Shown one piece after another: positions 40,146 to 53,321 of a stretch of DNA of 64,000 nt (position 1 is its first letter; each line of letters starts with the position of its first letter). A program made the translations under genes and the position numbers. The stretch covers positions 186,001 through 250,000 of the forward strand of contig NZ_NINW01000049.1 of assembly GCF_002188465.1 (NCBI RefSeq), given 5' to 3'. The notes below the pieces were generated by a model. That model made no database searches. It saw only the letters and a program-made list of their open reading frames with translations, and had not been told where the DNA came from. Source of the DNA: Pigmentiphaga sp. NML080357 (GTDB taxonomy: Bacteria > Pseudomonadota > Gammaproteobacteria > Burkholderiales > Burkholderiaceae_B).

Positions 40146-40368
40146 CACGGCTTCCCTTGCGGGCAAGCCGGAAAAGCGGGACGGGGAATGGGCAGCTTGG
40201 GAATGATGGCGGCGGAGCCGGCCGGACCGGACGGGGACATGAAAACGGAATCGGGAACCTGGGCGGCGACCGCACCGCCCGAGTGGCAAGGATAGCGCGA
40301 AACGCGGTCACGCTGGCAGTCGCAAAGGGGCCGGCTCCGGCTCCCCTGGCCACATTCATTAATGAAAC

Positions 40369-40397
40369 TTGATTGCATAAGAAACAAAGTTGCATTA
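40369..40397 (+). promoter_or_regulatory. Promoter of the TonB receptor/CobN-like operon
   Basis: TTGATT (40369-40374) and GCATTA (40392-40397) are separated by 17 bases. Directly upstream is a perfect 12-base palindrome, TTCATTAATGAA (40355-40366), a possible regulator site. It does not match a Fur box. The remaining gap from 40146 shows no gene. Confidence 0.5.
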
Positions 40398-40437: not shown

Positions 40438-42480
40438 ATGAAAACCGGGGTGGGCGGCGCGGCCGCCTTGATCGCGTCGTCGTTGGCGTGCGCGCAGGGT
40501 CCTGGAGAGGCGTCGCCTTCCCAGGCGCTGGAGACGGTGGTCGTAACGGCCACCCGCAGTGAACAATCGGCCAGCGACGTGGCATCGTCGATGGAGGTGA
40601 TCGATGCCGGCGCGCTCGATGCGAGCGTCGGCACGACCTTCCTGGATCTGGTCAAGAAGAACGCCAGCGTCGACGTCATCCAGTATCCCAATGGCCTGGC
40701 GGGGATCGGATTGCGCGGCCTGCGTCCCAATTTCGAGTTCACCATCAACCCGCGCACGCTGGTGCTGGTGGATGGCCGCCCGTCGGGATCGACCAGTTTC
40801 ACGACGCTCGCGCCGGACAGCATCGAGCGCGTGGAGGTGCTCAAGGGCCCGGCTTCGTCGCTCTACGGCGCGTCGGCCATGGGCGGCGTGGTCAACATCA
40901 TCACCCGGCACTCGAAGGGACCGCTGAAGGGACGCGCCAGCGTGGGCTACGGTTCGTTCGAGACGTACCGGGGCGAGGTCGCCATCGGCGGCTCGTTGTC
41001 CGAGCGCGCCGATTTCGACCTGGCCGCGGGCTATGTGGAGCAGGCCGGAGATTTCCGTACCGGCGCGGGCGACCGCCGGCCCAATAGCGATTCGCGGCGC
41101 ACTTCCGGGCGGCTGCGCCTGGGGATGGATCTTCATGACATCGTGCGCGTCGATGCGTCCGTGGATGCGGCGGATTTGTCCAACAATGCGCCGGGGCCGC
41201 TGAGCTACGACCCGCCCAGCGCCTCGGGCAACGATACCCGCCGTGTCAGCGGGGACCTGCGCCTGCAGATCACGCCCGAGCGCCACCGGATCAGCCTCGT
41301 CACCTACGCTTCGCGCGAGGACTACAACTACATCACCGTGCCCGCCGCCGCGCCGCGCTACCGCTCCAGCCGCACGGTGTCCCGCTATAAGGGCCTGCAG
41401 GCCCAGGACACCTGGACGCTGGACGAGACGTTCGCGCTGACCTATGGCTTCGATTGGCAGCGGGTCGAGGCCGAGCGCTCGTCGTACTTGTCGTCCGGGG
41501 CGCAGACGGCGCCGTACAGCCCCAACGAGCGTCGCGACAGCAAGGGCTTGTTCGCCGAGCTGGCGAGCCATCTGCTGGACGATCGGCTGGTGCTGACGCT
41601 GGGCGCGCGCAATGACTGGATCGACGCGAGCACCTTGGCCACGCCCTACAAGACCCGTTTCACGCCGGCCTCGTCGAGCTTCACCAGTTTCAATCCGCGC
41701 GGCGGGGTGGTCTACAAGCTGGCGCCGGCATGGCGCGTGCACGCGTCCGCGGGCACGGCATTCGCGCCGCCGCAAGGCAGCGAGCTCGCCGGCGAGAACG
41801 AGGAATTCGCCGGCAGCCAGCGGCGGCTGAGCGTGGGCAATCCCGGCCTGAAACCGGAACGCAGCACCAGCTATGACGTCGGCGTAGGCTACGCCACGCG
41901 CGACGTCGATGCCGACCTGACATATTTCGACGCGCGCATCCGCGACCGCATCCGCTCGGTCATCGTCAGCGAGACGCCGGCCGAGCGGATCAGCAGCTAC
42001 GAGAATGCCGATACCTCCCGCATGCGCGGCCTGGAGGGGCGGCTGGCCTTCGACGCCGGGGTCCTGTTCGGCTTGCCGGCCGGCCGCCTGGGCGTGGCGA
42101 GCAGCGTCACCCGGCTGCTGCAGGCCGAGGACTTCGATGCCGGCGGCGCCGTCCCGATACGCAACGTCGCCAAGTGGAAGGCCAATGTCTCGCTGACGGT
42201 GAGCAACGGCAGCGACCTGTCGGCCACCATGACCGTGCGCCACAACGGCACCCGCTACGACACGGACAACAGCCAGGGCCGTCGCTACACCGGCGGCCGC
42301 GGCGGCGTGTTCGCCAATGCGTCGTTCACCGTGGTCGACCTGAGCGCCAGCTGGAAGATGACGCCGCGCGACACCTTGCGCGTGGACATCGCCAACCTGT
42401 TCGACCGCGACTACTACGAAAAGGCCGACTACATCATGCCGGGCCGCGCCTTCTACCTGCGCTACACGCGCGCGCTGTGA
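40438..42480 (+). CDS. TonB-dependent outer-membrane receptor of the CobN-like operon
   Basis: This receptor of 680 residues has a signal peptide, a TonB-box-like ETVVVTATRS after it, a plug (ASVDVIQYPNGLAGIGLRGL, KGPASSLYGASAMGGVVNII) and a barrel ending FYLRYTRAL. The region FAPPQGSEL...NPGLKPE corresponds to the FRAP/NPNL box of haem receptors, but no histidine lies between the two halves, so haem may not be the ligand. A corrinoid, other metalloporphyrin or metal chelate is possible. The ATG at 40438 is chosen over an upstream GTG. It is the first gene of a four-gene operon. Confidence 0.9.
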   Translation: MKTGVGGAAALIASSLACAQGPGEASPSQALETVVVTATRSEQSASDVASSMEVIDAGALDASVGTTFLDLVKKNASVDVIQYPNGLAGIGLRGLRPNFEFTINPRTLVLVDGRPSGSTSFTTLAPDSIERVEVLKGPASSLYGASAMGGVVNIITRHSKGPLKGRASVGYGSFETYRGEVAIGGSLSERADFDLAAGYVEQAGDFRTGAGDRRPNSDSRRTSGRLRLGMDLHDIVRVDASVDAADLSNNAPGPLSYDPPSASGNDTRRVSGDLRLQITPERHRISLVTYASREDYNYITVPAAAPRYRSSRTVSRYKGLQAQDTWTLDETFALTYGFDWQRVEAERSSYLSSGAQTAPYSPNERRDSKGLFAELASHLLDDRLVLTLGARNDWIDASTLATPYKTRFTPASSSFTSFNPRGGVVYKLAPAWRVHASAGTAFAPPQGSELAGENEEFAGSQRRLSVGNPGLKPERSTSYDVGVGYATRDVDADLTYFDARIRDRIRSVIVSETPAERISSYENADTSRMRGLEGRLAFDAGVLFGLPAGRLGVASSVTRLLQAEDFDAGGAVPIRNVAKWKANVSLTVSNGSDLSATMTVRHNGTRYDTDNSQGRRYTGGRGGVFANASFTVVDLSASWKMTPRDTLRVDIANLFDRDYYEKADYIMPGRAFYLRYTRAL

Positions 42481-42506
42481 CCGGCCCCGGCAAAAGAGCG
42501 ACTCTC

Positions 42507-43043
42507 ATGGAACTGAAACTGCTTCTCGAACAGATCTCGAACCTGCTGTTCTATCCGGCGCTCGTGCTGCTGGTGGTCTTGCTGGCGTGGATACTGGTCG
42601 CGCTCGGCATGTTCGTGCGCGGAGGATGGCAACGGCTGCGGGGCCGGCGCCCGGCGCAGGCGCGCTACCTGGCCATGATCGACGCGGCGGCGCGGGAAGA
42701 GGGCGCTGCGCTGGACCTGCGGCTCGAAGCGATCCTGATGCAGGCGGAGAACGCGGCCCAGCGCAGCCTCGATACGGTGCGCTTCGCCGTCCGGGCCGGA
42801 CCGTCGCTGGGGTTGATGGGCACGCTGATACCCATGGCGGCCGCGCTCAACGGATTGGCCAGGGGCGACCTGCCGGACCTGGCCGGCAACATGGTGGTGG
42901 CGTTCTCCAGCACGGTGGTGGGAATTGCGGTGGGCGTAGTGGCCTATGTGATCGCCATGGTGCGCGAAGGCTGGAGCCATGAAGACCTGGATGCGATCCG
43001 CCTGCGCGCCGAGCAGGCGCTGCGGGACGGGAGCGATCGATGA
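42507..43043 (+). CDS. MotA/TolQ/ExbB-like proton channel protein of the CobN-like operon
   Basis: This membrane protein of 178 residues has helices near residues 15-38, 95-115 and 130-150. The last two contain GPSLGLMGTLIPMAAAL and VVAFSSTVVGIAVGVVAY, the pore-forming motifs shared by ExbB, TolQ and MotA. It lies 26 bases after the receptor and overlaps the DUF2149 gene by 4 bases. It probably forms a proton-driven motor with the next protein, powering the periplasmic chelatase or the receptor. Equivalent small proteins accompany HmuS-type chelatases in Bacteroidetes. Confidence 0.88.
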   Translation: MELKLLLEQISNLLFYPALVLLVVLLAWILVALGMFVRGGWQRLRGRRPAQARYLAMIDAAAREEGAALDLRLEAILMQAENAAQRSLDTVRFAVRAGPSLGLMGTLIPMAAALNGLARGDLPDLAGNMVVAFSSTVVGIAVGVVAYVIAMVREGWSHEDLDAIRLRAEQALRDGSDR

Positions 43044-43390
43044 GGCGCGGCCTGCGCTTTGCCCGCGCGCGTCGGGCCCGTGCGCGGGCCGACGATCCGC
43101 TGGCCGGCGTGGCCAACCTGTTCGATGCCAGCCTGGCCTTCATCGTCGCCATGGCCGTGGCGCTGTTCTCGGTGCTGGGGGCGCAGGACCTGTTCAGCGA
43201 GGACGCCTCATGGACGCTGACGCGCACCACGCGCGACGGGCAGCTGGAAGTCGTGCGCAAGGACAAGAAGCAGATCAAGGTCGAGCGCGTCAGCGACCGC
43301 GAGTTGTCCGGAGAGGGGCAGCGCCTGGGCGTGGCGTATCAACTGCCCGATGGACAGGTGGTCTACGTGCCGGAGGGAGGCACGCCGTGA
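43040..43390 (+). CDS. DUF2149 protein, ExbD/TolR-like single-pass partner
   Basis: This protein of 116 residues has a very arginine-rich N-terminus, the motif DPLAGVANLFDASLAF, one membrane helix (residues about 30-47) and a periplasmic domain of about 65 residues. Aspartate 29 at the start of the helix sits where ExbD and TolR carry their essential proton-carrying aspartate. That comparison is mine; no enzymatic role for the family is established. Starts and stops overlap on both sides (ATGA at 43040, GTGA at 43387), so all partners are made in step. Confidence 0.88.
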   Translation: MRRGLRFARARRARARADDPLAGVANLFDASLAFIVAMAVALFSVLGAQDLFSEDASWTLTRTTRDGQLEVVRKDKKQIKVERVSDRELSGEGQRLGVAYQLPDGQVVYVPEGGTP

Positions 43391-46300
43391 TCGCGTTCCG
43401 CGCTTGGATCGCCTTGCGCCGGCTCGCTCTGTTGCCGCGTGTCCTTGGGCCGTCACGAATCCGGCGAGGGTTGATCGCCATCATGTGCGCCATGTTGGCC
43501 GGGACCGCCGGGGCGGCTATCGGCGCGGCGCCTTCGCTGCCCAGGATCGCCGTGATCTCCATCGAACTGGCGCAGCAGCCGGCGGCCATGCGCGAAGCCG
43601 TGGCTCGCCAGCGCGACCGGCTCCGCATCGACCTCTTCGGCCTGGGCGGCGGCTACCTGCCCGGACTGGACGGCGTGGACCTGGACGGCTACGACCTCGT
43701 CCTGGTCGAGGGAGTCGGGCCGCGGCTGGCGCAATACCGGCGGCGCCTGGCGCAAGCCGCGCGGCATACGCGGGTGCTGGTGCTCAACGGCACCGAGTGG
43801 GTGGACGGCAACGTGCCCATCGCCGCCGTGCCCGACGCCCCCCGCTACTGGGCCAACGCCACGGCGGAAAACTACGCGCGCCTGTTCGACTATCTGGCCG
43901 CCCGGCTGCTGGGCCGGTCCGTGACGCCGCAACCGCCGGTCATCTATCCGGACCAGGCGTTCTACCATCCCCGGCACGCCGGCGTCTTCGACACCCTCGA
44001 CGGCTATCTTGCCTGGGCGGCGCAGCGCCACCGCGACGCGCCCTCGCGGCCCCGGGTCGGGCTGGTGTTCTACCGCAGCCTCGCCTTGGGCGGCAACACG
44101 GCGGTCGTCGATGCGCTCATCGAAGAGGTGGAGCGGCAGGGAGGCCTGCCCGTGCCCATGTGGCGCAGCAACAGCCAGGTGTCGCTGCGGCATCTCGAGG
44201 ATGCCCGCGGCCGGCCCGCCATCGATGTCCTCGTCCTGTGCGCCAGCCAGATCGACTATGCCGATCATGCGGCGGGCGTGGCCCAGGCGCGCCGGCTGGG
44301 CGTGGCCGTGCTCAATTGCACGACGGACTACGCCCGCACACCCGGGCAGTGGCGCGCGGATCCGGGCGGGTTCGCGCCCGATCGCAGCGGGCAGCTGGCA
44401 ATGAGCGAGGCCAGCGGCATCGTCGAACCCATGATGGTCGGGGCGCGCGAACCCGACGCGCAAGGCATGCCGGCGCACGTGCCGCTGGCCGGACAAGTGG
44501 CGTGGCGGGTATCGCGCGCGCTCGCCTGGGCGCGCCTGCACCGGCTGCCGAACGCGGACAAGCGCCTCGTGATCGCCTACCACAGCGAAAGCGGCGATCC
44601 GGGCGACGTCGGCAGCGATCCGGACACCTACCTGGACGCCCAGGCCAGCCTGTCGGCCCTGCTGGCGCGGCTGCGCGCCGAGGGCTACGACCTCGGGCCG
44701 GGCGAGCTGCCCGGCGCGCACGAACTCGCGCGCCGCATGGCCGAGGACGCTTCCAACGCGAGCGGACCGGGCGCGGCCGCCGAACTGGCTCGGCGCGCGA
44801 GGCAGGGCGGACTCGTGCTGATTCCCGAATCGCGCTACCTGGCGTGGTACCGCACGCTGCCCGCGGATCTGCGGGCGCAGACCGAAGCCCGCTGGGGGCC
44901 GCCGCCCGGCCGCATCATGGTGCACACGGACGCCCAGGGCCGGCGCCAGCTCGCCATCCCGGTGCTGCGCTTCGGCAAGGTCGTCCTGGCGCCGCATCCG
45001 GTATGGGGCTATCTGCAGGACGACGGGGCCCTCGCCTCCAAGGAGGCGCTGCCGCCCCATCACCAGTACATCGCGTTCTACCTGTGGATGGCGCGCGATC
45101 TCCACGCGGATGCCTACCTGCCGTTCTTCACCCAGCTTTCGCTGATGCCGGGCAAGCAGCAGGGGCCGGCCCGCGACGACTGGGTCGGCACGCTGATCGG
45201 CGACCTTCCCCACATCCAGCCCACGCCGCTGCAGGCCAACGGCGGCGTGGGCAACAAGCGCCGGGCGATGGCGGTGACCACCGGCTTCATGCCGCCGCTG
45301 GTCCAGGGCGGCCTGCCGCCCGGCCTCCAAGCGCTGCGCGACGCGCTCGATGACGCGGCGGATGCGCAGGCCGGGCACGCGCAAGCCAGGCGGCTCGCGC
45401 AGCCGCTGGCCCGCGACCTCGGGCTGGACCCGGCGCGGGCGCAATGGCCCGAACTGGAGCGCGCGCTGCGCCGCTACCTGGACGAAGTGGCGCGCGCCGT
45501 GATGCCGGCCGGCGGCCACGTGCTGGGCCAGGTCCCGGATGCCGAGACCAAGGCGCGCATGGTCCATGCCATGATCGCCGGCGACACGGAACATCCGCCG
45601 GCGCTCGACGTGGTCCGCGCGGCGTTGGGCGGACAGCCGGCCGGCCCGGCGCTTGCCGACGGGATGCGGGCGCGCATCGATGACTATGCCCGGCGCATCG
45701 ACCAGGCGCCACGCGAGATGGATGCCGTCGTCGACGCCTTGCGGGGCCGGTACATCGAGCCGGGCCCGATGGCCGACGCTGTGCGCAATCCCGACGCGCT
45801 GCCACCGGGCCGCAATCCCTATACGCTGGCCACGCGCCGCCTCCCTACGCGGGATGCATGGGAGACGGGCGTTCGCCTGGCCGACGATCTCGTGGCCACG
45901 TATCGACGCGAGCATGGCCAGCCGCCGCGCAAGGTGGCGTTCGTGCTGTGGTCCGGCGAGTCGGCGCAGAACCAGGGCGCGATCGAGGCGCAGATCCTGC
46001 GGCTGCTGGGGGTGCGCCCGGTCTGGAATCCGCGTGGCGAGGTGGTGGACGTGGAGCTGGAGAGCCGCGCTGCGCTGGGCCGGCCGCGCGTGGACGTGCT
46101 GGTGACGACCTCGGGAACCTACCGCGACCATTTCCGCGACAAGATCGAGCTGATCGCCAAGGCGGTCGCGCTGGCGGCGCGGGCGGACGAACCGGACAAC
46201 GCCGTGCGGGCCGCGAGCACCGGCACGATCGCGCTGCTCAGGAGCCAGGGCCTGCCTGAAGAAGAGGCACGCCGCCGGGCGCTGCGCCGGGTCTATTCGA

Positions 46301-47274
46301 CCGCGCCCGGCGCGTATTCCCCATCGACCCAGTTCGCCATCAAGGCGGGCGCCGAATGGACCGACGCTCGCCTTGCCGGGCTCTACGCCGACCGGATGTC
46401 GCACGCCTACGGCGGCGGCGCCGAGGGCGAGGCCGACGGCGCGGGCTTCGGCGCGCAGCTCGATGGCGTCGATGCCGCGGTGTTCAGCCGCAGTTCCAAC
46501 GTCTATGGCCTGCTCGACACGCCCATGGCCGCCGCCTACCTGGGCGGCATCGGCATGGCCGTGCGGGAACGCACCGGGCGCGCCGTCGCCAACTATGTCG
46601 CGGACCTGAAAGATCCGCGTCCCGGGCAGGCACGCATCGATGACCTGGCCCGCAGCTATGGCGCGGAACTGCAAAGCCGCTACTTCAACCCCGCGTGGAT
46701 TCGCGCCATGCAGGCCAGCGGCTACAACGGCGCCCGCTACATGGCGCAGCTCCCCGAGCACCTGCTGCTGTGGGACGTGACCACGCCGGAACTGGTGGCC
46801 GACGCCGACTGGCAGGCGGTCAAGGAAATCTATGTGGACGACAAGTACCGGCTGGGCCTGCAGGACTACTTCGCGCAGCACAACCCGTATGCCCGCCAGC
46901 AACTGATCGGCGCGCTGCTTGACGCCATCGAGCGCGGCAAGTGGGAGGCCGGCGATCAGGTTCGCGCGCAACTGGAACAACTGCTGGCGCAGGAGACCGC
47001 GGCGCACGGCGCCCACTGCGCGCAGGCGGCCTGCCATGCGCGCCAGGAGCGGCTCGCGCTCGGCGCCGCGCCTTCGCTGGCAGGAGCCGCGGCTCCCCCG
47101 CCCATGGACGGGACGCATGCGACCGGCCGGCAGCCGGTACGCGGCTTCGCGCTGGAGGAAAAGCGCCCCGCGCCAGCTTCGCCGGATGCGCCGCGTCCGC
47201 TGACCGCCTGGCTGGCCGCCGGGTTTGCCCTGCTGCTCGTGGCGGCCGGCGCCGCGCGCAGGCCGCGCTGGTAG
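43387..47274 (+). CDS. CobN-like chelatase, predicted periplasmic and membrane-anchored (HmuS-like)
   Basis: This protein of 1295 residues is of the cobaltochelatase CobN / magnesium chelatase H family (KRLVIAYHSESGDPGD, GKVVLAPHPVWGYLQDD, HHQYIAFYLWM, QPTPLQANGG, KVAFVLWSGESAQNQG, FGAQLDGVDAAVFSRSSNVY). CobN proper is cytosolic. This one has an N-terminal hydrophobic export-type segment (GLIAIMCAMLAGTAGAAIGAA) and a C-terminal proline/alanine linker, a membrane helix (AWLAAGFALLLVAAGA) and a short basic tail. Most of it therefore lies in the periplasm. No CobS/CobT ATPase is encoded nearby. It fits HmuS-type dechelatases, which remove metal from haem. The GTG at 43387 is chosen; an ATG at 43483 would shorten the signal. 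Confidence 0.9.
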   Translation: MIAFRAWIALRRLALLPRVLGPSRIRRGLIAIMCAMLAGTAGAAIGAAPSLPRIAVISIELAQQPAAMREAVARQRDRLRIDLFGLGGGYLPGLDGVDLDGYDLVLVEGVGPRLAQYRRRLAQAARHTRVLVLNGTEWVDGNVPIAAVPDAPRYWANATAENYARLFDYLAARLLGRSVTPQPPVIYPDQAFYHPRHAGVFDTLDGYLAWAAQRHRDAPSRPRVGLVFYRSLALGGNTAVVDALIEEVERQGGLPVPMWRSNSQVSLRHLEDARGRPAIDVLVLCASQIDYADHAAGVAQARRLGVAVLNCTTDYARTPGQWRADPGGFAPDRSGQLAMSEASGIVEPMMVGAREPDAQGMPAHVPLAGQVAWRVSRALAWARLHRLPNADKRLVIAYHSESGDPGDVGSDPDTYLDAQASLSALLARLRAEGYDLGPGELPGAHELARRMAEDASNASGPGAAAELARRARQGGLVLIPESRYLAWYRTLPADLRAQTEARWGPPPGRIMVHTDAQGRRQLAIPVLRFGKVVLAPHPVWGYLQDDGALASKEALPPHHQYIAFYLWMARDLHADAYLPFFTQLSLMPGKQQGPARDDWVGTLIGDLPHIQPTPLQANGGVGNKRRAMAVTTGFMPPLVQGGLPPGLQALRDALDDAADAQAGHAQARRLAQPLARDLGLDPARAQWPELERALRRYLDEVARAVMPAGGHVLGQVPDAETKARMVHAMIAGDTEHPPALDVVRAALGGQPAGPALADGMRARIDDYARRIDQAPREMDAVVDALRGRYIEPGPMADAVRNPDALPPGRNPYTLATRRLPTRDAWETGVRLADDLVATYRREHGQPPRKVAFVLWSGESAQNQGAIEAQILRLLGVRPVWNPRGEVVDVELESRAALGRPRVDVLVTTSGTYRDHFRDKIELIAKAVALAARADEPDNAVRAASTGTIALLRSQGLPEEEARRRALRRVYSTAPGAYSPSTQFAIKAGAEWTDARLAGLYADRMSHAYGGGAEGEADGAGFGAQLDGVDAAVFSRSSNVYGLLDTPMAAAYLGGIGMAVRERTGRAVANYVADLKDPRPGQARIDDLARSYGAELQSRYFNPAWIRAMQASGYNGARYMAQLPEHLLLWDVTTPELVADADWQAVKEIYVDDKYRLGLQDYFAQHNPYARQQLIGALLDAIERGKWEAGDQVRAQLEQLLAQETAAHGAHCAQAACHARQERLALGAAPSLAGAAAPPPMDGTHATGRQPVRGFALEEKRPAPASPDAPRPLTAWLAAGFALLLVAAGAARRPRW

Positions 47275-50755: not shown

Positions 50756-51541
50756 TCAGGATCGACAGTCCGCCGATCCGGATCGAGCGACGGGTTGTCG
50801 GACGGGGGTGACGAGCCGTCCCGGCTCATACAACATCCACCGGTAGGCCGCCGCGCAGATCGTCCAGTCGAGCAGCAGCGTCCAGACGTTGTGCGAAAGG
50901 AAGTGGGCGCCCTGCGCCATGCGCACTGCCGATAGCACCGTGCCGAGCAGCAGGGCTCCCCCCAGCATCCATCTCGCGCGGTGGGGATGGCCATCCCGCA
51001 GGGCGAAGTACAGAGCCAAGAGCGAGAAACCTGTCGAGGCATGGCCGCCTGGCCAGCACCGTCCCGGATTATTGGTTGCCGGGCGATGCCCCACGAGCGG
51101 CGAATAGGATTCCTGCCCGCCGAAGTCCGCGAGGCTCCATGGACACTGGACCGCCGTTGCCGCCTTCAAGGGGGCGACAATGCCGGTCGACAGCCCGACC
51201 GCGACCAGCACATAGGCCAGGCGCCGGCGCCAGGCCGCCAGGTCGCGCCGCACCAGGCTCGCGATGAATCCTGCGAGGACCGCGAGCATGAATGCGGTCA
51301 TGGCATCGCGAACACCCCGATGAAGGACCGCTTCCAGGAATACGCTCTGCCTGCCCACGAAACCCTGTCCAGGCAGGTACAGGGCGCGCGCGAGCGCAAA
51401 GTCGGCGCTTGTAGGGTCAATGAACAGCAGGGCGGTCATCGCGCCCGCCGGGAGGCCCAGCCACAGCGCGAAGTTGAAGGGACGCGATGCCGGCGGACTG
51501 TCGCCGCGCCGGGCCATGCGCGTGAAGCGGTCTTCAATCAT
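50756..51541 (-). CDS. PAP2-family membrane phosphatase
   Basis: This protein of 261 residues has about six hydrophobic segments and PAP2 motifs: K-x6-CP (cysteine where arginine is usual), WPGGHASTG near residue 168 and the R-x5-H segment RMAQGAHFLSHN near residue 210. Relatives remove phosphate from lipid A or isoprenoid lipids. Its start overlaps the eptA stop by 4 bases, so it is co-translated with a lipid A phosphoethanolamine transferase, and a lipid A phosphatase role is a reasonable inference. Confidence 0.9.
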   Translation of the reverse strand: MIEDRFTRMARRGDSPPASRPFNFALWLGLPAGAMTALLFIDPTSADFALARALYLPGQGFVGRQSVFLEAVLHRGVRDAMTAFMLAVLAGFIASLVRRDLAAWRRRLAYVLVAVGLSTGIVAPLKAATAVQCPWSLADFGGQESYSPLVGHRPATNNPGRCWPGGHASTGFSLLALYFALRDGHPHRARWMLGGALLLGTVLSAVRMAQGAHFLSHNVWTLLLDWTICAAAYRWMLYEPGRLVTPVRQPVARSGSADCRS

Positions 51542-53187
51542 GCGTCGCCGGGGCCGATGCCGCCGCCGCGGCGACAGGCGGCGAACATGTCGAGCTTCGG
51601 ATCGCGCACCGCCGTCTCGATCTGCAGCAGGCCGAGTATGGAGTGGAAGTAGTTGTCGTGGCTATACGCCGCTTGCCGGGATCGTTTCAGGCATTGCAGG
51701 TCCAGGCCGAAGTCCTGCGCGTACGAAGGAGAGAACCACGCCAGCATCGCCACGTGCGTCTGCTGGGGCGGCGCCAGCATGTAGGGCGTTCCGTGCAGGT
51801 ACAGCCGGTATTCCCCCAGCGACTCGCCATGGTCCGAGACATACACCATGGCAACGTCGAGCTTGTCCTGGTTCGCGCGCAGCCGGTCGATCAGCGTGCC
51901 CAGCACGCGGTCGGTATAGGCGATGGTGTTGTCGTAGGCGTTGACGATGCTCTCCCGGCTGCAGGCGTTCAGGGCGTCGCTTGCGCAGACGGGGCCGAAG
52001 CGGGCAAGCGCCTTGGGATAGCGCTTGTAGTAGTCGGGCCCGTGGCTGCCCATCTGGTGCAGCACCAGCACGGCATCGTCTTGCAAATGGTCGATGTAGT
52101 CCTGCAGGCCGTCCAGCAGTATCTCGTCGTGGCACTCGCCTTCGCCGCAGTAGGCCGGCACGCGCGCATCGCGCACGCTCTCGAAGGCGACGCGATCGCA
52201 CGTGCCCTTGCAGCCGGATTGGTTGTCGCGCCAGGTCACGCGCAGGCCGGCGCGCTGGATCACGTCCAGCAGTCCTTCCTGCTGTCTGGCGCGATTGGCG
52301 TCGTAGCCGGCCCGGGTCATGTTCGAGAACATGCAGGGCAAGGACACGGCGGTCTCGGTCCCGCACGACGTCACGTTGCCATAGGCGATCAGGCCGTCCT
52401 CCGCGGCCAGCCGCGGTGTCGTATCGCGTCCGTAGCCCAGGACGCCGAAGTTCTCCGCCCGTGCGCTTTCGCCCACGACCAGCACGGTCAGGGACTTGCG
52501 CCGGTGGCCGGCCCACGCCGCGGCGCGCCGGGCGTCCGCGCCCAGTACGGCGATGGGCCGGGCTGGCGCGGCCAGGCGGTCCTTGGCGAAGCTCACCATG
52601 GCGGCCAGGTAGTTGCTGGGCACGACCATCATCCGCAATTCGTGGTGATTGCGCAGTAGCGAGGACAGTCCCTGGTAATCGCCCAGCGCGACCAGGACCA
52701 GCACGCCCAGCGACGCCAGGATGGCCGCAGCCTTGCCCAGCAGCTCGCGGCGCAGCGGCCGATGGGCCAGCGGCACTTTCAGGATCAGCCACGAGGGCAA
52801 TACCCCCAGCAGCAGCACCGTCAGGAACAGCTGCGGCGACAGCAGGTCGCGCACCTCCCGCACGTCGGTTTCGGCCACGTTGAGCAGCATGCCCTTGTCG
52901 ATCAGGACGCCATACTGGAGCATGAAATAGGCCACGACCGAACTGGCCATGCAGAGCACCACCAGGGTAGGCTTGAGCACCCATCGGAACGAGGCCAGCA
53001 CCAGGACCAGCGTGAAAATGGCCAGCACCATGACGGCGAACGCGGCCTGCGTGGCCAGGCCGCCGTGGCTGCCGGCGGTGGCGATCTCGCCCAGCCGGCG
53101 CCAGAGCGGAATGTTGTAGAAGGCAAGGAAATGGAGGCCGGCCAGGAAGGCGAGCGCTTCCGGCGCGAGACGGCGGGGTCGGATCAT
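51538..53187 (-). CDS. eptA: Lipid A phosphoethanolamine transferase EptA
   Basis: This inner-membrane enzyme of 549 residues has five N-terminal helices and a periplasmic sulfatase-fold domain. It adds phosphoethanolamine to lipid A and lowers binding of cationic peptides. Zinc and catalytic residues are visible: glutamate in VVGESARAENFG, the nucleophile threonine in SCGTETAVSLPCMFS, and VSDHGESLGE. The start at 53187 (MIRPRRLAPE) matches family length. A two-component system is divergent from it. Confidence 0.95.
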   Translation of the reverse strand: MIRPRRLAPEALAFLAGLHFLAFYNIPLWRRLGEIATAGSHGGLATQAAFAVMVLAIFTLVLVLASFRWVLKPTLVVLCMASSVVAYFMLQYGVLIDKGMLLNVAETDVREVRDLLSPQLFLTVLLLGVLPSWLILKVPLAHRPLRRELLGKAAAILASLGVLVLVALGDYQGLSSLLRNHHELRMMVVPSNYLAAMVSFAKDRLAAPARPIAVLGADARRAAAWAGHRRKSLTVLVVGESARAENFGVLGYGRDTTPRLAAEDGLIAYGNVTSCGTETAVSLPCMFSNMTRAGYDANRARQQEGLLDVIQRAGLRVTWRDNQSGCKGTCDRVAFESVRDARVPAYCGEGECHDEILLDGLQDYIDHLQDDAVLVLHQMGSHGPDYYKRYPKALARFGPVCASDALNACSRESIVNAYDNTIAYTDRVLGTLIDRLRANQDKLDVAMVYVSDHGESLGEYRLYLHGTPYMLAPPQQTHVAMLAWFSPSYAQDFGLDLQCLKRSRQAAYSHDNYFHSILGLLQIETAVRDPKLDMFAACRRGGGIGPGDA

Positions 53188-53321
53188 GACAGTCGGAGCT
53201 TGAACGCAGGAGACAGCCGTGCTGAGATAACGGCTTCGACGGCAGGCTAGCCGCGCCCCCGTCAAATTTTCGTGAAAAATTCCTCGTAGAATCGTTCGCC
53301 CCCCCGCGCCGTCCGCCGCCC

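Follow-up and report, generated by a model that had tools for sequence, protein, structure and literature searches.

The window analysed here, a stretch of 64,000 nucleotides from Pigmentiphaga sp. NML080357, raises the question of which metal is handled by a CobN-like protein encoded together with a TonB-dependent receptor, and what drives it. Four tightly coupled genes of the + strand were found at 40438-47274, exactly where the initial annotation had placed them, and the profile matches agreed with its reading of all four. The features of the locus are as follows:

40361..40394, + strand: two 17-base repeats (AATGAAACTTGATTGCA, TAAGAAACAAAGTTGCA) in the receptor promoter, recognised by eye
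40438..42480, + strand: TonB-dependent outer-membrane receptor, 680 aa, ATG start (Plug 8.5e-20, beta-barrel 5.6e-53)
42507..43043, + strand: MotA/TolQ/ExbB-family channel subunit, 178 aa, ATG start (MotA_ExbB PF01618, 5.1e-12)
43040..43390, + strand: DUF2149 protein, 116 aa (PF09919, 6.9e-25)
43387..47274, + strand: CobN-like protein (class I chelatase large subunit), 1295 aa, GTG start (CobN-Mg_chel 8.6e-253, residues 153-1191)
45124..45141, + strand: site of the lost HFG(T/A)HG motif, residues 580-585 = FFTQLS

The channel, DUF2149, and CobN-like genes overlapped by 4 bases at each junction. An alternative in-frame ATG of the CobN-like gene is located at 43483. Ten other operons (L002-L008, G024, G059, and L181) had the same order, receptor–channel–DUF2149–CobN; thus, the operon is not a chance arrangement. 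Five congeneric genomes lacked both CobN and DUF2149, which indicates that the module is dispensable. The receptor contained the sequence ETVVVTATR, which we take to be TonB-box-like. Its best NCBIfam match was TonB-hemin (267.3 bits, below the cut-off of 316.85), and the TonB-B12 model gave 191.3 bits with a cut-off of 599.7; therefore, no substrate was assigned to the receptor.

The N-terminus of the CobN-like protein had an arginine-rich start followed by a hydrophobic stretch (LIAIMCAMLAGTAGA, mean hydropathy of 2.03), while the C-terminus contained a hydrophobic helix (LTAWLAAGFALLLVAAGAA, mean hydropathy of 2.00) followed by RRPRW. This export-type N-terminus and the C-terminal helix with a basic tail, already described in the initial annotation, were identical in pattern in nine close relatives, and the protein is predicted to be exported and anchored in the membrane by its C-terminus. 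The predicted model (pLDDT 82.1) had a complete chelatase fold, with Foldseek TM values of 0.74 to CobN (7c6o) and 0.76 to HmuS (9d26). This fold and the PF02514 domain place the protein in the CobN/ChlH/HmuS superfamily. While it shares the fold and the Pfam family with CobN of CobNST and with ChlH, it differs from them in its predicted export, in the absence of CobT and of the HFG(T/A)HG motif, and in scoring 669 bits with the best CobN equivalog model, the cut-off of which is 1248. HmuS was the best PDB sequence match (3.2e-106). The matched stretches of this alignment joined at positions 727-729 of the query, yet those of HmuS ended at 697 and restarted at 873, so the Met-rich insertion of HmuS is absent from the window protein.

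The window protein was one of 11 members of a well-supported clade. According to PMC12583661, the HFG(T/A)HG motif with its catalytic histidine is strictly conserved throughout the superfamily; in the window protein, it was not found. His538 (HmuS numbering), the catalytic histidine, was lost in all 11 members of the clade and kept in all 49 other aligned rows, and its HmuS partners His1209 and Glu1212 were replaced in 11/11 members as well. In the window protein, all of the HmuS ligands (Met79, His254, His538, and His1209) and the partner Glu1212 were replaced. Replacing His538 abolishes the activity of HmuS, the H538A variant of which yields no protoporphyrin. Misalignment was ruled out as the cause of the loss by the raw sequences of all 11 members, which read FTQLSLMPGKQ or FTQISLMPGKQ at this site in the ten close members and FSNIVLQPGKS in L181. 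His537, His558, His609, His915, and Met1047 were invariant in the clade; these clade-specific histidines suggest that the catalytic site was replaced and not abandoned. This clade without the histidine represents a new variant, the nearest known systems being the PA1922-PA1925 operon and HmuSUV, and it offers a natural experiment on what residues are truly required for chelatase activity. In two related genomes, separate proteins (L107 and L108) kept the HmuS residues except Met79; one of these genomes, G061, also had an operon of the clade.

The channel protein carried the PF01618 domain of the channel subunits of ExbB/ExbD-type proton motors (5.1e-12), and an alignment of 18 channel proteins showed invariant P99, L101-G102-L103, T106, and A132-F133. 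The DUF2149 protein had a single N-terminal hydrophobic helix with an aspartate invariant in 29/29 aligned proteins. It is possibly an ExbD/MotB-like partner of the channel. The PF01618 channel and the aspartate in this hydrophobic helix are points in common with ExbB-ExbD, TolQ-TolR, and MotA-MotB. A difference from these systems is that the Pfam scan gave no ExbD match for the DUF2149 protein and that its profile comparison with ExbD was weak (18 columns of the helix only, probability of 18.8%, E of 0.0012). Neither the channel (best E of 0.2) nor DUF2149 (best E of 0.39) had a significant match in PDB sequence searches, and the structure model of DUF2149 had a pLDDT of 61.8, a confidence too low to permit searching for similar folds.

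The initial annotation had proposed that these two small proteins replace ATP in driving the CobN-like protein; the gene neighbourhoods support a tie of the pair to the CobN-like protein. In the family scan, 31 of 34 CobN pieces were within 4 kb of a DUF2149 gene, the other three being contig-end pieces. Among 398 Pseudomonadota genomes, DUF2149 occurred in 17, each of which also contained PF02514. The pair also adjoined CobN-like genes in Methanosarcinales (L009, L014, and L015), archaea having neither an outer membrane nor TonB. This near-constant adjacency, including that in archaea without an outer membrane, indicates that the pair probably serves the CobN-like protein and not TonB. CobT, the absence of which had also been noted, was not found in the own genome by a profile search (PF06213), where the only PF02514 match was the CobN-like gene of the window. 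Co-occurrence without CobT, the check proposed earlier, was found in five CobT-less genomes, which had a CobN-MotA-DUF2149 set with an export-type CobN (export judged by reading); this fits with the pair standing in for the ATPase. B12 genes were seen beside four of these five sets. The B12-linked CobN proteins formed a separate clade with His538 kept, and these sets raise the question of whether late cobalt insertion always requires CobST.

Zinc was suggested by the regulation of the sister operons. The sequence TGTTATDNHATAACA is presumably a Zur-type palindrome; a literature search found no printed Zur consensus, and its support here comes from the genes that it precedes. Such a box was found ahead of the receptor in 9 of the 11 clade operons, although the nine are not all independent, since G024 and G059 are near-identical and L004 and L007 are two copies from one species. 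In eight of the ten operons first tested it lay 45-61 bases 5' of the receptor (0-8 of 2000 shuffles were as good), and in L181, the eleventh and distant member, 145 bases before it (0/1000 shuffles equal). Two operons shared the box between the receptor and a divergent gene of a zinc-binding AztC/ZnuA protein; the AztC-type zinc-binding gene, divergent in both P. noertemannii copies, scored 344 and 339 bits (cut-off 350). The box also preceded Fur-family genes with Zur (NF008646) as the best match (117, 115, and 79 bits; cut-off 167), a gene for an AztA-type ATPase (213 bits; cut-off 220), and a gene for a ZnuD-like receptor. A genome scan, in which overlapping sites were counted twice, gave 3-10 sites in seven of eight genomes versus 0-2 for the reversed pattern. 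Two of the 14 distinct box places read precede genes not recognisable as zinc genes.

The Zur box was absent before both Pigmentiphaga operons (197 of 2000 shuffles were as good for the window and 993 of 2000 for P. kullae), and a genome-wide search of P. kullae that allowed one mismatch found none either. The Fur, NikR, and Zur consensuses had no convincing match in the window promoter; a sigma-70 and terminator scan found no promoter, and terminators at chance level only. In the own genome, TGTTATANNATAACA at up to two mismatches had 6 matches, as did the control, and a single place (C26:16136) was within one mismatch of TGTTATDNHATAACA, its adjoining genes not being read as zinc genes. ZnuA was not found in this genome, and its Zur candidate was weak (27.9 bits; cut-off 167). 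The zinc link of the window is therefore drawn from its relatives, and a zinc role of the operon is moderately supported.

Two known systems are close to this cluster. The PA1922-PA1925 operon of Pseudomonas aeruginosa, compared by its published description, likewise unites the genes of a receptor, a CobN-like protein, and small membrane partners, and it is reported to be Zur-regulated and abundant only in zinc depletion (PMC4542158, PMC8531726, and PMC11761036). Such zinc-starvation control would be shared with those relatives of the window operon that carry Zur-type boxes. The gene order differs, being described as receptor-CobN-small-small (PMC4542158). PMC11481552 does not mention PA1922, PA1923, PA1925, or CobN. 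The HmuS system of Bacteroidota with HmuU/HmuV (PMC12583661) shares the exported and anchored CobN-like protein, the MotA/ExbB and DUF2149 proteins, and the TonB receptor; the window unit differs in having no HmuY or HmuT gene, and its relatives in their zinc-type boxes.

The initial annotation had modelled the cluster on HmuS, and removal of iron from haem in the periplasm would agree with a gene set of the same kind as hmuRSUV, with HmuS as the top PDB match, and with a receptor closest, though under the cut-off, to haem receptors. We give this explanation a slim chance, and the HmuS-like part of the annotation was not supported: the HmuS metal-binding residues are missing, at positions 538, 1209, and 1212 throughout the clade, one such replacement suffices to silence HmuS, the Met-rich insertion is lacking, separate proteins with these residues except Met79 occur in two related genomes, and the boxes of the relatives indicate zinc and not haem iron. 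A cobalt role, with corrinoid import and metal exchange in the periplasm, appears very improbable. CobN ancestry, the B12 genes beside four of the five CobN-MotA-DUF2149 sets, and a published speculation that PA1922 had its origin in a cobalt importer (PMC11761036) speak for it; however, the B12-linked proteins belong to the other, His538-keeping clade, the clade operons have Zur-type boxes, and no B12 gene was found among the three flanking genes scanned around the window operon.

It also seems rather improbable that the pair is a dedicated ExbB/ExbD energising the TonB receptor of the operon, with the CobN-like protein independent of it. The channel does resemble the ExbB family, PA1924 is viewed as ExbD (PMC4542158), and HmuU/HmuV are viewed as powering haem import (PMC12583661), but the pair adjoins CobN-like genes in Methanosarcinales, and in L177-L179 it lies directly 3' of CobN, no receptor being noticed when the flanking stretches were read; L180, unlike these, has two receptors nearby. 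An unlikely, if somewhat stronger, candidate is a protein that no longer removes metal and instead serves in the periplasm as a carrier or scaffold, binding a zinc complex and handing it on, with the pair aiding inner-membrane transport. Loss of the catalytic residues with retention of the fold would suit it, as would the proposal that HmuTUV carries haem across the inner membrane (PMC13227078). The invariant histidines of the clade, suggestive of a replaced site, argue against it. We also know of no MotA/ExbB pair that acts as a solute channel, which counts against this explanation too.

Given the Zur-type boxes in most sister clusters and the loss of the catalytic histidine, zinc gain probably prevails over haem-iron stripping, and we assign about an even chance to the four-gene cluster being a zinc-acquisition module whose chelatase-like protein, powered by a proton motor, frees zinc from an imported carrier. 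The receptor would import a zinc-loaded carrier, a small chelator or a metallo-tetrapyrrole, to the periplasm, where the CobN-like protein, tethered to the inner membrane, would grip it with a chelatase-type cleft. Movement of this protein would be powered by the proton gradient through the MotA/ExbB-DUF2149 pair, a counterpart of the ATP-using CobST and ChlID of cytosolic chelatases, and the zinc freed would pass to periplasmic zinc-binding proteins. Since the usual histidine ligand is replaced in the clade, release would have to proceed through other residues (e.g., His537, His558, His609, His915, and Met1047) or by mechanical opening. For the window species, we infer zinc as the metal, the carrier, and proton-driven release; the tetrapyrrole substrate and the proton power put forward in the initial annotation likewise remain conjectural.

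A broader and somewhat doubtful proposal is that MotA-DUF2149 generally takes the place of the AAA+ pair, as a proton-driven motor, wherever class I chelatases work outside the cytoplasm, be the metal iron (HmuS), zinc (Zur-linked), or cobalt (B12-linked, CobT-less); the window clade would have discarded the porphyrin-handling histidines and evolved a new histidine/methionine set, becoming a proton-powered zinc stripper for a non-haem carrier. If true, the proton gradient could power metal removal from very tight chelates outside the cytoplasm, a single protein family would cover iron, zinc, and cobalt acquisition, and a testable role would emerge for DUF2149 and for the Zur-controlled CobN-like operon of Pseudomonas aeruginosa.

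Another match of TGTTATANNATAACA, L081, was located 5' of an apparent CsoR-type repressor gene and a cation-efflux gene. The P. kullae promoter contained repeats of the same form as the two 17-base repeats of the window.

We class the window operon as an apparently undescribed variant within the known CobN-like/HmuS-like membrane systems, most likely one that serves zinc. The genome carrying it was 5.73 Mb in length; the nearest named relative at the locus was Pigmentiphaga kullae (92% identity of the CobN-like protein). The four-gene operon of the initial annotation was confirmed, with four-base overlaps among its last three genes:

Upstream flank, opposite strand: Mem_trans transporter
40438 to 47274, + strand: four same-direction genes encoding a TonB-dependent receptor, a MotA/TolQ/ExbB-family subunit, a DUF2149 protein and a CobN-like protein of 1295 residues
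Downstream flank, about 120 bases away: amino-acid permease

A single CobN-family gene was present in the genome; neither CobT nor a ZnuA-family protein was found by genome-wide family searches. Three Fur-family matches were identified: L076, Fur by reading; L077, with Fur as its best match (76 bits); and L078, which adjoins a CobW-family GTPase and has Zur as its best but weak match (27.9 bits against a cut-off of 167). Elsewhere in the window, at 50756-53265, a PAP2-type phosphatase stood next to a membrane sulfatase-fold protein resembling, by reading only, lipid A phosphoethanolamine transferases.

At its N-terminus the CobN-like protein was basic and carried a hydrophobic stretch; at its C-terminus a hydrophobic helix preceded RRPRW. 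Nine close relatives repeated this pattern at both ends. The C-x4-C pair ahead of the C-terminal helix was also found in HmuS, the haem de-chelatase of Bacteroidota, and, together with the helix, in eight of nine CobN-like rows from Methanosarcinales; the ninth row was truncated. Residues 48-1215 were modelled with AlphaFold2 (input alignment of 16 sequences; pLDDT 82.1, pTM 0.81), and Foldseek placed the model with HmuS (9d26, TM 0.76) and CobN (7c6o, TM 0.74), ChlH scoring lower (0.66-0.68); on the basis of this model and placement, the protein is predicted to contain the complete chelatase body.

Gene neighbourhoods supported the proposal that MotA/ExbB and DUF2149 (the channel pair) act as a proton motor for the exported chelatase. 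Among 151 genomes of the family, 26 contained a gene of the CobN family and 27 contained one for DUF2149. After three split pairs were joined, the 37 CobN rows gave 34 pieces, 31 of which had a DUF2149 gene within 4 kb; the other three were contig-end pieces in genomes G114 and G143. Conversely, a CobN piece lay near 31 of 34 DUF2149 genes, the exceptions being those of G129 and G138 and a weak match in G080. The DUF2149 genes on G129:C19 (L109) and G138:C4 (L110) had neither MotA nor CobN in the fetched stretch and are possibly remnants of lost operons. Two main gene orders were observed: receptor-MotA-DUF2149-CobN (type A, as in the window) versus CobN-MotA-DUF2149 (types B and D), mostly preceded by a receptor.

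In 398 Pseudomonadota, DUF2149 was found in 17 genomes and PF02514 in 134, including all 17 with DUF2149. The scan gave 18 DUF2149 genes; MotA lay beside DUF2149 at all 17 fetched loci and in the window, and CobN was within the fetched stretch at 16 of these 17 loci and about 2 kb further on at the last. The order MotA-DUF2149-CobN also occurred in three of five Methanosarcinales loci (L009, L014, L015); in L011 and L013 the first CobN frame ran to the stretch edge. Archaea of this type have no outer membrane, which means that powering a TonB receptor cannot be the reason for the pair's presence there. Tandem pairs of CobN-like genes were seen in L009, L011, L013 and L014.

CobT was absent from 13 of the 16 DUF2149 genomes tested. 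In five genomes (G450, G535, G456, G509 and G527; loci L176-L180), CobN was followed by MotA and then DUF2149, and genome searches did not find CobT. Their CobN proteins had, by reading, an export-type N-terminus and a C-terminal helix, and retained the histidine corresponding to HmuS His538. Family scans identified CobO, CobB, CbiB (just below the NCBIfam cut-off, above that of Pfam), a CobD-type decarboxylase and BluB around L179; cobalamin genes at L176, L177 and L180 were identified by reading, and none was present in the fetched stretch of L178. The L180 receptor was nearest to B12 receptors, below cut-off. These sets may represent a proton-driven cobalt chelatase and offer the strongest hint that CobST can be replaced by the channel pair; with a cobalt chelatase that is exported, the question arises how the corrin gets to it.

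Sets of HmuS with HmuU (ExbB-like) and HmuV have been described (PMC12583661, PMC13227078, PMC10434189), the last gene being named DUF2149 in PMC10434189. According to PMC12583661, a cation sits between His538 and His1209 in HmuS, the HFG(T/A)HG motif including His538 is strictly conserved across the superfamily, and the H538A variant keeps haem binding and yields no protoporphyrin. We compared 60 sequences, aligned in three steps, using HmuS numbering reconstructed from printed alignments (14 of 14 residues checked agreed with the paper's names). Among type A members, the ten close ones had either FTQLSLMPGKQ or FTQISLMPGKQ in the motif region, which was shortened by two residues and had Gln at the position of His538. 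L181, a distant member that shares the gene order and comes from a different family within the class, had FSNIVLQPGKS, with Asn at this position. All 11 type A proteins carried Met for His1209 and Ala for Glu1212, and the HmuS haem site (Met79/His254) was not conserved. His538 was kept in all 49 non-type-A rows, HmuS among them; positions 1209/1212 were His/Glu in type B (17/17), as in HmuS, and Asp/Gln in type D (4/4) and most archaeal rows. Residues specific to type A (invariant in 11/11, present in no more than 10% of 48 further rows) included His537, His558, His609, His915 and Met1047. In three trees, one without and two with L181, a branch with support of 100 separated type A from the other sequences; the trees were quick with long branches, which leaves the deeper position of type A unsure. 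The analogy with haem-processing HmuS, drawn initially, is weakened both by these lost residues and by the regulation of the relatives. A caution on HmuS-like function in general comes from B. fragilis lacking both CobN-like proteins, which is reported to grow poorly on haem iron and still to make protoporphyrin (PMC6460266).

The palindrome TGTTATDNHATAACA, which we take to be the consensus of the box for the zinc regulator Zur, lay 45 to 61 bases upstream of the receptor start (0-2 mismatches) in sister operons L003-L008 and those of G024 and G059; 0 to 8 of 2000 dinucleotide-preserving shuffles were equally good. These operons are not all independent: one species contributed two copies, L004 and L007, and G024 is almost identical to G059. 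The L181 box (2 mismatches) lay 145 bases upstream of the receptor, with 0 of 1000 shuffles as good. Seven of eight genomes had 3-10 Zur-pattern sites versus 0-2 for the reversed pattern (forward strand, at most one mismatch, overlapping sites counted twice). Of 14 distinct places (16 loci) inspected by reading, 12 preceded a type A receptor or a Zur-like, AztC/ZnuA-type, AztA-type or ZnuD-like gene, as judged by reading or scan; L113 and L128 preceded neither. Family scans of eight box-linked proteins agreed with reading for seven, mostly below curated cut-offs; the eighth, L115, was a short frame with a Zur match of only 43 bits. In P. noertemannii, both copies had the box in the region separating the type A receptor from a divergently oriented AztC/ZnuA-type gene.

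No Zur box was found upstream of the window and P. kullae receptors, so the zinc assignment for the window species rests on the sister operons. P. kullae had no Zur-pattern site genome-wide (forward strand, at most one mismatch); the window genome had one near-match, away from recognisable zinc genes. Zinc control may have been rebuilt in this genus, given the missing ZnuA, the stray near-box and the weak Zur candidate L078. Two 17-base repeats in the operon promoter (window 40361-40394) were common to the window and P. kullae.

A published counterpart is P. aeruginosa PA1922-PA1925, which Zur regulates and which is strongly induced when znuA is mutated; PMC4542158 gives its role as undetermined. 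Zur binds the PA1922 promoter (PMC8531726), and the proteins are reported as abundant only under zinc depletion, with table p-values mostly above 0.05 (PMC11761036). PMC10393844 calls the system a suspected importer of non-chelated zinc, its Zur control seemingly unique to P. aeruginosa within Pseudomonas. In open-licence full text, we found no publication describing the histidine-less clade, nor any describing a Zur box for these beta-proteobacterial operons.

With the receptor start estimated for some type B and D operons, a box match reached by at most 11 of 500 shuffles preceded 11 of 17 type B operons; L091 and L098 had weaker boxes (45/500 and 30/500), and L088, L090, L095 and L100 had no match upstream. 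In type D, L083 had a box (2/500) and L085 a weak one (31/500), and none was found upstream of L084 and L086. In two related genomes, CobN-like frames (L107 in G061, 1606 residues; L108 in G018, 1614 residues) kept the HmuS residues apart from Met79 and each had a Zur-type box with one mismatch at the frame start, which suggests that HmuS-like proteins too may come under zinc control. Stretches resembling TGTTATANAAT occurred in L083 and L085 at a similar place in the last 0.6 kb before CobN, possibly a site for another metal regulator.
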